NCBI RefSeq assembly: GCF_004959925.1
Contig: NZ_SPUW01000003.1
Coordinates: 620,001-684,000, forward strand
Origin: Pseudooceanicola onchidii
GTDB lineage: Bacteria > Pseudomonadota > Alphaproteobacteria > Rhodobacterales > Rhodobacteraceae
DNA length: 64,000 bases
Direction of reading: 5' to 3'
Notes under the pieces: generated by a model
Seen by the model: only the letters and a program-made list of their open reading frames with translations
What the model was told of the DNA's origin: nothing
The model's database searches: none
In this document: positions 52,760-59,995 of the stretch, piece by piece
Layout of the letters: each line of letters opens with the position of its first letter
Position numbering within the stretch: the first letter of the stretch is position 1
Translations under genes and position numbers: made by a program

Positions 52760-53079
52760 GCTGGCTGAGCCGACATATCGAGCGACTGATGCGCAAGGCC
52801 GAGGCCGAGGGGCAGCTCTCGGGGCTGGAAGGCGAGGGGGAGCCCTTGCCGGACCGGGTTGCCGATGCCTCGGACCCGGCGGTGGCCGTGGCGATGCGGA
52901 TCATGGCCGAGGCGGGGGCGCTGCCCGAGGAGTTCAAGCTGGCGAAAGAGCTTGAGGTCGCCAAGGCGGACTACACCGCGGCGTCGGAGGACGAGAAGCC
53001 CGAGGCGATGCGCCGGCTGGCAGAGCTGTCGTTGAAGCATGCGATCGCGCGGGAGGCGCGGAAGAAGTTCATGTCGTAG
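52756..53079 (+). CDS. DUF1992 (DnaJ-like conserved domain) protein
   Basis: A 107-residue protein of the DUF1992 family: IERLMRKAEAEGQLSGLEGEGEPLP is the conserved core, followed by a helical KLAKELEVAKADY region. It shares an ATGA overlap with the ycjF-like gene. The family is linked in databases to DnaJ-like proteins, but no J domain HPD motif is present. Function unknown. Confidence 0.85.
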   Translation: MSWLSRHIERLMRKAEAEGQLSGLEGEGEPLPDRVADASDPAVAVAMRIMAEAGALPEEFKLAKELEVAKADYTAASEDEKPEAMRRLAELSLKHAIAREARKKFMS

Positions 53080-53159
53080 GCGGGGTGTCTGGTCCGTATG
53101 GCGGTGCGGCAATACAGACCGCGCGGCGACGCCATGGGTCTTTTGCGCGACGTCGGCGG

Positions 53160-53227
53160 CGCGGGGGCGCTGCCCCCGTCGCGTGCCGCGACTCCCCCGA
53201 GGTATTTCGGACCAGAAGAAGCCGGGC
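53160..53227 (+). repeat. Intergenic hairpin element, copy F
   Basis: Head CGGGGGCGCTGCCCCCG, a small inner repeat GTCGCG/CGCGAC, tail CTCCCCCGAGGTATTTCGGA then CCAGAAGAAG. It lies between DUF1992 and the ileS leader promoter. Confidence 0.8.
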
Positions 53228-53259
53228 GCGGGCTGTGTCGGGGCGGGGCGTTTCGCCGC

Positions 53260-53288
53260 TTTACCCTTGCGGGGGGCGGGCCTATAAG
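53260..53288 (+). promoter_or_regulatory. Probable promoter of the ileS leader
   Basis: TTTACC (53260-53265), 17 bases, TATAAG (53283-53288). The -10 and the spacing match the GTA promoter. The expected start at 53294-53296 falls on the first ATG of the Ile-rich leader peptide. Confidence 0.65.
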
Positions 53289-53294
53289 GCGGGC

Positions 53295-53345
53295 ATGATG
53301 GGCTGTTTCGCGATCATCATTCGAATTACATGCCCGGCTCTCTGA
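53295..53345 (+). CDS. Ile-rich leader peptide of ileS
   Basis: A 16-codon frame encoding MMGCFAIIIRITCPAL, with four Ile codons in a run of five (ATC ATC ATT CGA ATT). It ends 80 bases before ileS. A second ATG at 53298 is also possible. The transcript would start on or next to the ATG. After it, CGCC (53353-53356) can pair with GGCG (53364-53367), or GGCGC (53364-53368) can pair with GCGCC (53380-53384), but not both. No T tract is present, so translation control is more likely than termination. This is a candidate, judged by codon content and place. Confidence 0.6.
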   Translation: MMGCFAIIIRITCPAL

Positions 53346-53425
53346 CCAGAGACGCCGGGACAAGGCGCATGGGTTCCCCGCGCCGATCTGACCCCCTCAT
53401 CACGACCTGAAACGGATCACACGAC

Positions 53426-56341
<2,916 letters not shown>

Positions 56342-57712: not shown

Positions 57713-57778
57713 ATGACCGGCATCCTGTGGCAGGACAATCAGATCGAAGGGCGATGGCGCGGCGTGACCGCCGACTGA
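57713..57778 (+). CDS. Possible Trp-containing leader peptide of trpE(G)
   Basis: A 21-residue frame beginning MTGILWQDNQ and containing two separated Trp codons (residues 6 and 15), ending 60 bases before trpE(G). GAAGGGG (57698-57704) is a good ribosome site and TTTACA at 57657 may be a -35 box. Downstream sequences can form GCGGC/GCCGC stems. Fused trpE(G) of Sinorhizobium meliloti is known to be attenuated through a leader with consecutive Trp codons; here the Trp codons are not consecutive, so the case is weak. Confidence 0.35.
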   Translation: MTGILWQDNQIEGRWRGVTAD

Positions 57779-57838: not shown

Positions 57839-59995
57839 ATGACTGATCTGACGTACCGGACCGACGGCGGGCTGACCGTGTCGCGACGCGAAATTCCTGC
57901 CGAATACCATGGCGACACCGACCGGCTGGCCGAACAGCTTGATGCGCATCGCGGGGCGCTGTTTTCCTCGAATTACGAATATCCCGGTCGCTATACGCGT
58001 TGGGAATTCGGATTTTCTGAACCGCCCGTGATGATCGAAGCGCGCGGGCGGCAGATGCGGATTGCCGCGTTGAATGACCGCGGCCGCGTATTGCTGCACA
58101 TGATGCAGGGCGCGCTGAAGGCCATTCCTGAAGTGGCCGAGATGAATACAGGTGCCGCGGAAATTGAGCTGCGTGTCGTGACGCCGGATCGCGTCTATGA
58201 CGAGGAGGAACGGTCGCGCGCGCCTTCGGTTTTCTCGGTTCTGCGCGCGCTGGTCGCGCATTTCAAATCGGACGAGGATCACCACCTGGGGCTTTACGGT
58301 GCCTTCGGGTATGATCTGGCATTCCAGTTCGAACCGATCGAGTTTCACCTGGACCGGCCGGCGGATCAGCGCGACCTGGTGCTGTTTCTGGCCGATGACC
58401 TGCTGGTGGCCGACCACTATTCAACGACGGCGATCCGGTACCAGTACGATTTCACCGATGGCGATCTGACCACCGTCGGCCTGTCCGGGGGCGGTGAGGC
58501 CGTGCCATTCGAACGGGGGCGCCAGGATGTGCCGCGCGGCGATCACGCGCCGGGGGAATACGCCGAACTGGTGCGCGAGGCGAAGAAAAGCTTCATGCGC
58601 GGCGACCTGTTCGAGGTCGTGCCGGGGCAGGTGTTCTACGAGCCCTGCAAGGACAGTCCGTCGGCCATTTTCAAGCGGTTGAAGAAGATCAACCCCGCGC
58701 CCTTCGGGTTCATCATGAACCTTGGCGATCGTGAATACCTGGTGGGCGCCAGCCCCGAGATGTTCGTGCGCGTGACCGGCAGGCGGGTCGAGACCTGCCC
58801 GATTTCCGGGACCATCAAGCGTGGTGCCGATGCGATCGAGGACAGCGAACAGATCCTCAAGCTGCTGCAATCCAAGAAGGACGAGAGCGAGCTGACGATG
58901 TGTTCGGACGTCGACCGCAACGACAAGAGCCGCGTCTGCGATCCCGGCTCGGTCCGGGTCATCGGGCGGCGCCAGATCGAGATGTATTCACGCCTGATCC
59001 ACACGGTCGATCATATCGAGGGGCGGCTGCGCGAGGGGATGGATGCCTTTGACGCCTTCCTGAGCCACGCCTGGGCGGTGACGGTGACCGGGGCGCCCAA
59101 GCTCTGGGCGATGCGGTTCATCGAAAAGCACGAGAAATCAACGCGGTTCTGGTATGGTGGCGCGGTCGGGGCCATGGGGTTCGACGGTGACATGAACACC
59201 GGCCTGACGCTGCGCACCATCCGCATCAAGGATGGCGTGGCCGAGGTCCGGGCGGGTGCGACGCTGCTTTACGACAGTGATCCAGACGAGGAAGAGGCCG
59301 AGACGGAGCTGAAGGCCAGCGCCATGCGGGCGGCGATCCGCGGTGACGTGCGGGCCAATGACGGTGCGGGCGATGGCTGGCGCGTGGCGCGCGGGCAGGG
59401 GCGGCGGATCCTGCTGGTCGATCACGAGGACAGCTTCGTGCACACGCTGGCCAACTATTTCCGGCAGACCGGGGCCGAGGTGCTGACGACCCGGACGCCG
59501 GTTTCGGATCAGGTCTTCGATCAATTCCGCCCCGATCTGGTGGTCATGTCGCCGGGGCCCGGCAATCCGCGTGATTTCGATTGCAATGCGACGATCGGCA
59601 AGGTTCTGGATCGCAGGCTGCCGCTGTTCGGCGTTTGCCTGGGCCTGCAGGCGATTTCGGAATATTTCGGCGCGACCCTTGGTCAGCTGTCGGTCCCGAT
59701 GCATGGCAAGCCGTCGCGCATTAACGTGACCGACCCGGGCGTTGTTTTCGACGGCCTGCCCGAAACGATCACGATTGGTCGGTACCATTCCCTGCACGCC
59801 CGCGCGGATACAATTCCGCAGGTGCTGCGCGTTACCGCCTCGACCCCGGACGGGATCGTCATGGGCGTCGAACATCGCGATCTTCCGGTGGCCGCGGTTC
59901 AATTCCATCCGGAATCGATCATGTCTCTGGGACAGGATGCCGGGCTGCGCATGATCGAAAATGTCGTTAGCCAGCTTGGGATCGGCAATAAATAG
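57839..59995 (+). CDS. trpE(G): Fused anthranilate synthase TrpE(G)
   Basis: A 718-residue fusion of both anthranilate synthase parts, making anthranilate from chorismate and glutamine. Residues 1 to about 505 are the chorismate-using half ([71 protein letters not shown]). Residues about 518-718 are the glutaminase half with LLVDHEDSF, the nucleophile in GVCLGLQAI, and [12 protein letters not shown]. This arrangement is the rhizobial/azospirillum type. Codon use is somewhat less GC-rich than in neighbours. It has its own terminator. Confidence 0.95.

Follow-up and report, generated by a model that had tools for sequence, protein, structure and literature searches.

A compact leader with an invariant CGA-ATT codon pair and a hairpin upstream of ileS in Pseudooceanicola onchidii and many other alphaproteobacteria, probably sensing isoleucine shortage

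How might a bacterium adjust its isoleucyl-tRNA synthetase to a shortage of isoleucine, and what part could a reading frame of a few codons play in this adjustment? The question is raised by a locus of the alphaproteobacterium Pseudooceanicola onchidii (Rhodobacteraceae; assembly GCF_004959925.1), in which a short isoleucine-rich ORF precedes ileS. The locus lies in a stretch of 64,000 nucleotides (contig NZ_SPUW01000003.1, positions 620,001 to 684,000), called here the window. An earlier note on this DNA proposed that ribosomes short of Ile-tRNA would stall on the isoleucine codons and expose ileS for translation. We compare the locus with its counterparts in the family and in the class. A tiny gene and an RNA hairpin before ileS recur in many alphaproteobacteria; through them the cell probably senses a lack of isoleucine and regulates the enzyme accordingly. 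Our preferred reading, to which we give a probability of roughly 0.6, is that of a leaderless, Ile-tRNA-responsive leader peptide controlling ileS: a ribosome waiting at one particular ATT codon would open the adjoining hairpin H1, and the output would probably operate at the level of transcription. The features of the locus are collected in Table 1; the identity of ileS follows the naming of the earlier note and similarity to family and class genomes, without recourse to a protein family library.

Table 1. Features of the ileS leader region; positions are counted from the first nucleotide of the window.
Feature	Position	Strand	Description	Basis
Promoter	53260..53288	+	TTTACC 53260-53265, 17-nt spacer, TATAAG 53283-53288	Reading of the sequence
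Leader ORF	53295..53345	+	MMGCFAIIIRITCPAL, 16 codons and stop, predicted leaderless	Conserved frame in relatives
Ile run	53313..53321	+	ATC ATC ATT	Enriched in the family, not universal
CGA-ATT-A	53322..53328	+	Rare Arg codon, Ile codon, then a codon beginning with A	102/102 family loci
Hairpin H1	53333..53359	+	10 bp; CCCGGCTCTC as 5' arm, which codes for the final PAL; loop with the stop codon; GAGACGCCGGG as 3' arm	Covariation
Hairpin H2	53364..53384	+	GGCGC-AT-GG ... CC-GCGCC	Covarying pairs C-G/U-A and A-U/G-C
Spacer	53385..53412	+	C-rich, G-poor stretch from H2 to the SD of ileS; candidate loading region for Rho	Base composition of family and class leaders
SD-like sequence	53413..53416	+	Weak, CGGA	AAGGA in most relatives
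ileS	53426..56341	+	Isoleucyl-tRNA synthetase, 971 aa; proposed controlled gene	N-terminal part and full-length similarity to family and class genomes

The transcript is predicted to start at the ATG of the leader ORF, six nucleotides beyond the end of the TATAAG box, which would make the leader peptide leaderless. A generic promoter scan of positions 53000-53500 returned no sites, and the promoter call is therefore founded on reading of the sequence and on conservation. A TATA box is present in 90 of the 95 distinct family leaders, the exceptions without a recognisable box being L008, L009, L010, L015 and L021; upstream of the box lies mostly TTTAC (44), TGGAC (32) or TTGT (8). The distance from the box to the first ATG is 6 nt in 43 of the 90 leaders, 7 nt in 37, 9 nt in five and 10 nt in five, the -10 box thus ending 6-7 nt before the ATG in 80 of them. 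The good promoter placing the transcript start on the leader ATG, as described in the earlier note, is upheld as a predicted start whose spacing is kept in relatives.

The same note had pointed to four Ile codons within five (IIIRI) and to a leader ending 80 bases before the ileS ATG, and both are readily seen in the sequence. Family loci were read upstream of ileS in two overlapping sets, 22 of the genus and 80 named, which make up 102 loci and 95 distinct leaders. Absence of the frame from relatives had been held to count against a leader peptide; an in-frame leader ORF was found in all 102 loci. Its end reads RI..PA in 101 of them and RI..PT in one (L061), and its stop lies 67-118 nt from ileS, apart from L109, whose script-chosen ileS start is doubtful and which was omitted from the alignments. 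The first ATG past the -10 box is in frame with CGA-ATT in 90 leaders out of 90, where chance would predict one third. Within the ORF, third positions are the most variable ones of codons -2 and -1. Frame conservation is good evidence for a translated leader peptide, predicted to be leaderless. Two family loci have a more distant leader stop, 118 nt from ileS in L060 and 117 nt in L066, which exceeds the distance of most relatives by about 30 nt; the additional bases of L066 include an enlarged H1 loop.

Which part of the leader is constant? The letters CGAATTA are kept in 102 of 102 family loci. Only CGA, out of six Arg codons, and only ATT, out of three Ile codons, are found at this core, while adjacent Ile codons of the leader switch among ATC, ATT and ATA, and synonymous codons occur elsewhere in the ORF. 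Both codons are uncommon: in 79 ileS ORFs, CGA accounts for 82 of 5451 Arg codons and ATT for 328 of 3223 Ile codons, and the corresponding figures for five genes of the window are 3 of 190 and 17 of 112. The pair CGA-ATT does not occur among the 197 Arg-Ile codon pairs of the 79 ileS ORFs, against an expectation of 0.35; these figures demonstrate that the pair is rare, and do not demonstrate that ileS avoids it. The codon following ATT specifies Ile in 50 of the 95 leaders (32 of them through the rare ATA), Thr in 33, Ser in eight and Met in four.

The Ile run, which the earlier note took for the sensing part, does not share this constancy. Among the three codons before CGA, three encode Ile in 63 distinct family leaders, two in 21, one in nine and none in two, so that 11 of 95 leaders have fewer than two. 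Most of the 22 core-bearing leaders from other families (see below) have no Ile run at all, yet CGA-ATT and H1 persist in them. The invariant part of the leader is CGA-ATT, not the Ile run.

Between ATT and the foot of hairpin H1 there are exactly 5 nt, and this spacing is free of insertions and deletions in every family and class case. The stop codon begins 10 nt (83 leaders), 13 nt (four) or 16 nt (eight) into H1 in all 95 family leaders, just past the 10-nt 5' arm. From the leader ATG into the beginning of ileS (53295-53470), the RNA folds at -59.5 kcal/mol, compared with a shuffle mean of -44.9 (z -3.9; none of 200 shuffles as stable), and H1 and H2 form together in the free fold of the window with a probability of 1.00 each. 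Consensus folding of 80 leaders with RNAalifold predicts only H1 and part of H2. In a structure-fit test on 47 sequences, 96.1% of alignment cells form pairs, versus 92.2% in shuffles; 43 cells are changed on both sides, versus 15.0, and the covariation score is 0.185, versus 0.111. None of 500 shuffles reaches any of these three values. The number of pairs with a double change (4 versus 2.9 in shuffles; reached by 84 of 500) and that of further pair types (14 versus 13.1; reached by 146 of 500) are unremarkable in the same 47 sequences. The first four pairs of H1 are invariant in the family alignment and thus uninformative on covariation; class sequences vary from arm position 5 on. As judged by eye, H2 is shrunk or missing in at least L099, L103 and L105.

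The behaviour of H1 was followed with a ribosome footprint model in which the front edge of the ribosome is assumed to lie 12 nt from the first A-site base. The mean predicted probability of H1 is 0.98 in the free leader, 0.96 for a ribosome on either the first or the third Ile codon, 0.75 at CGA and 0.26 at ATT; it is 0.00 with a ribosome one codon past ATT and at the stop. By this fall to 0.26, ATT would be the codon at which a halted ribosome opens H1, an arrangement that agrees with the rigid 5-nt spacing. In the mechanism that we propose, scarcity of charged tRNA-Ile would halt the ribosome when its A site holds ATT and its P site CGA. The front edge of the ribosome would then rest on the foot of H1 and hold the hairpin open. 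A ribosome completing the leader would be released in the H1 loop and allow H1 to refold. The state of H1 would then set how much transcript reaches ileS, the least certain step, and shortage of isoleucine would raise ileS. In Rhodobacteraceae, the Ile run upstream may add to the sensing. A halt at its first codons nevertheless leaves H1 closed in the model (0.96), which speaks against this scheme and implies that the Ile run and ATT need not act in the same direction.

CGA is presumably decoded through inosine-A wobble and AUU through G-U wobble, and the idea that certain codon pairs are inhibitory stems from work in other organisms. We tentatively suggest, as a possibility that we hold rather less likely than not to be correct, that CGA in the P site and AUU in the A site form a single poised pair 5 nt before the hairpin, by which slow decoding of one Ile codon would serve as a class-wide sensor of charging. 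The Ile run of Rhodobacteraceae would then be a later addition, and the invariant letters would be constrained at the codon level and not as a protein site.

How an opened H1 could be conveyed to ileS leads to the explanation favoured by the earlier note, in which ribosomes stalled on the Ile run would change the fold of the leader and so free the ribosome site of ileS. In the window, the predicted accessibility of SD and AUG is indeed 0.03 in the free RNA, 0.36 with a ribosome at ATT (0.31-0.38 from the third Ile codon through one codon past ATT) and 0.19 at the stop, and this part of the claim stands as a prediction. It does not extend to relatives: with a ribosome at ATT as compared with none, predicted accessibility rises in 29, falls in seven and changes little in 44 of 80 family leaders, and for 22 class leaders with a ribosome one codon past ATT it rises in three and falls in four relative to the free RNA, or rises in one and falls in six relative to the stop. 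The SD itself is AAGGA in 55, AGGA in eight, GGA in 16 and absent in one of 80 family loci. As the shifts are inconsistent in family and class, an SD switch is unsupported as a conserved output. The two mutually exclusive hairpins postulated by the note were not borne out either, H1 and H2 being compatible; a 4-bp alternative pairing between them could form in 74-78 of 80 leaders, and its mean probability is at most 0.08 in every ribosome state, so that a mutually exclusive antiterminator was rejected as well. Control by translation attenuation therefore appears unlikely to us. As far as sequence tells, the leader has the ORF with codons for the pathway amino acid that is expected of an attenuator, frame and Ile codon being present in 102 of 102 family loci; the Rho-independent terminator that classically stands before the gene was not found. 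A terminator scan of 53000-53500 gave no terminator-like sites, and the family alignment has an ACAAGG or CAAAGG-like sequence after H1 and a C-rich sequence after H2, with no U-run. H1 as a class-wide intrinsic terminator was rejected by eye, T-rich sequence lying 3' of it only in L135, L143, L124 and possibly L153. Since there is neither a U-run terminator nor a conserved SD switch, we lean towards an output at the level of transcription rather than towards translational control; it could involve pausing of RNA polymerase or an action of Rho on the C-rich spacer. The spacer averages 39% C and 13% G in the family (C above G in 80 of 80) and 37% C and 24% G in the class (19 of 22), a bias that is unexceptional given that the C-G difference averages 0.04 (sd 0.15) in 33 other leaders of the window, several of which match or surpass ileS.

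The strict letters of the core also invite explanations that need no sensing of tRNA. RNase E prefers RN^WUU, which GAAUU fits, and the core could be a processing site cut at GA^AUU as ribosomes pass, with a ribosome waiting at ATT shielding the cut and stabilising the ileS mRNA. Such a site would explain why the letters, and not the amino acids, are constrained, and the AU-rich single-stranded stretch directly before a strong hairpin in GC-rich RNA suits it. About 7,000 of 23,000 clustered RNase E sites of Rhodobacter sphaeroides carry AU where the RNA is cleaved, and in E. coli U is preferred at +2 (PMC6238624). RNase sites are degenerate, whereas the CGA-ATT core is invariant in the family; the class variant L185 retains the in-frame ATT codon but not the purine, and ileS is unmentioned in the main text of that study (PMC6238624). 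On balance we judge a processing site quite improbable. If, instead, CGAATT and H1 together formed the binding site of a protein, for instance IleRS itself, the ORF would be a by-product; strict conservation of letters beside a hairpin could be read in this way, but a by-product would hardly keep its frame from the promoter-proximal ATG in every leader with a -10 box, vary most at the third positions of codons -2 and -1 and place its stop in the H1 loop throughout, and we regard a protein site as very unlikely. A codon pair, a 5-nt spacer and a hairpin also resemble frameshift signals, and starvation-induced frameshifting at CGA-ATT could extend the leader into the ileS region and couple translation. 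This last explanation is given next to no credence and was rejected, as the +1 frame extends into the final 20 nt upstream of ileS in only 53 of 95 leaders and the -1 frame in only 39.

The breadth of the element was examined with a covariance model, R1, counting matches anywhere in a genome. R1 matches 273 of 295 family genomes (272 of 294 genera) at E<=0.01. The genome of the window has a single good match (E 3.5e-18), the next one having an E-value of 2.79; family genomes such as G026, G034, G058, G099 and G292 have a second match at E<=0.01, which may reflect a further ileS copy, a duplication in the assembly or chance. In the order sample, 60 of 61 genomes match at E<=1, all of the window's family, and at E<=0.1 the class sample of 190 genomes yields 36 with a match, three of which belong to this family. 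Seven genomes outside the family (G388, G372, G398, G374, G436, G375 and G425) have the match directly upstream of ileS; many other weak class matches lie elsewhere or in genomes without a placed ileS. Rfam contains no relevant family for the whole window at gathering scores, and at E<=10 it yields for positions 53240-53480 only two unrelated weak matches and no T-box.

A shorter core was sought directly upstream of ileS in a class sample of 115 genomes, 94 of which have an IleRS match at E<=1e-150, two from the window's family and 92 from others. Upstream stretches were read for 86 of these 92; G379, G393, G418, G421, G431 and G435 were omitted on account of an incomplete ileS start or a contig end. 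Without L126, which has 38 nt upstream, 85 genomes remain; they represent as many families, none of them the window's own. The core CGAATT-N5-CCCG[GA], or one variant of it, lies within 300 nt upstream of ileS in 22 of these 85 alphaproteobacterial genomes. The strict pattern accounts for 21, compared with none on the reverse strand and 0.03 per 85 in Markov sequences. Two chance occurrences of CGAATTA, in L131 and L132, have neither an in-frame ATG nor CCCGG and are excluded from the 22. Of the 22 cases, 21 have CGAATT intact and 20 retain the A that follows it; in the variants CGAATTC (L173, L128) and TCGATTA (L185) the ATT codon is still in frame. An in-frame ATG is present in all 22, with products ranging from MRIIGPAL (L167) and MAARRIINPVL (L138) to those of longer ORFs. 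A hairpin anchored at CCCG was likewise found in 22 of 22, by a fold search biased towards finding one, and that of L146 is without its first pair. Counts were made apart from a MAFFT alignment of the class leaders, which misplaced the 3' arm. In one class member, L158 (genome G359), the CGA-ATT frame reads past the ileS start and, unlike in the others, does not end in the hairpin loop.

The core is missing upstream of ileS in 63 of the 85 class genomes. The end of a ribF-like gene lies upstream in 19 of them, in several within 70 nt of ileS, which leaves little room for a leader. The remaining 44 have neither core nor ribF-like end, and absence of the core is therefore real in many families of the class. 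In L133, L148, L151, L157 and L163, for example, the ribF-like gene lies within 70 nt of ileS, which suggests an operon of ribF and ileS at loci that lack the leader.

How does this leader compare with known systems? Like the trp, ilv and pheST attenuators, it consists of a short ORF with codons for the pathway amino acid followed by hairpins; it differs from them in having neither a U-run terminator nor a supported antiterminator, and in that what stays invariant is a single rare codon pair, set at a fixed distance from a hairpin overlapping the end of the ORF. In attenuation of the tnaC type, which depends on Rho, the amino acid arrests the ribosome at the stop codon. A leader ribosome could similarly govern the access of Rho to a C-rich stretch before ileS, where the proposed sensor would instead be a sense Ile codon and the involvement of Rho is conjectural. 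The leaderless poly-cysteine short ORFs of mycobacterial cys operons are closer in that they are predicted to be leaderless, carry codons for the sensed amino acid and have no obvious terminator, with Rho suggested, according to the accessible part of the source, which also covers terminator-less leader peptides as well as translational T-boxes of ileS in Actinobacteria (PMC1262725). The mycobacterial ORFs concern another amino acid, another phylum and another gene. We know of no invariant codon pair locked to a hairpin in them. The actinobacterial T-box shares with the present leader the control of ileS at the RNA level by Ile-tRNA charging, as far as the consulted portion of that source goes (PMC1262725); it reads the tRNA directly and hides the SD, whereas here a conserved ORF is found and no Rfam T-box match.

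The nearest precedent by position comes from Caulobacter crescentus, where an 'ileS leader CDS (CCNA_03934)' serves as a negative control, as the legend of a figure states (Schrader et al. 2014, PMC4117421). The available part of that paper maps CDSs by ribosome profiling, describes 375 leaderless mRNAs and reports attenuation of the ilv operon via Ile and Val codons with a terminator; it gives no mechanism, hairpin or conservation for the ileS leader (PMC4117421). Both are small CDSs before ileS in an alphaproteobacterium, likened here by position and not by sequence. In the literature searched, which largely leaves out subscription journals, no description of the mechanism or conservation of the ileS element was found, and this paper, in the part accessible, alone names an alphaproteobacterial ileS leader (PMC4117421). 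Should our preferred reading be right, ileS would be governed in many alphaproteobacteria by an old and very compact leader whose essentials are two codons and one hairpin, and which exerts control without the terminator or antiterminator of the textbook scheme. Two questions would then lend themselves to direct test: by what means a leader peptide works when neither an intrinsic terminator nor a visible switch at the ribosome site is present, and whether cells can use a specific wobble-decoded codon pair to sense charging. A family-wide RNA element absent from Rfam now has a working covariance model.

Elsewhere in the window, a short ORF on the forward strand (57713-57778), MTGILWQDNQIEGRWRGVTAD, contains two Trp codons and lies 60 nt before a longer ORF (57839-59995) that resembles, by its sequence, a fused trpE-trpG; the short ORF may be a trp leader peptide.
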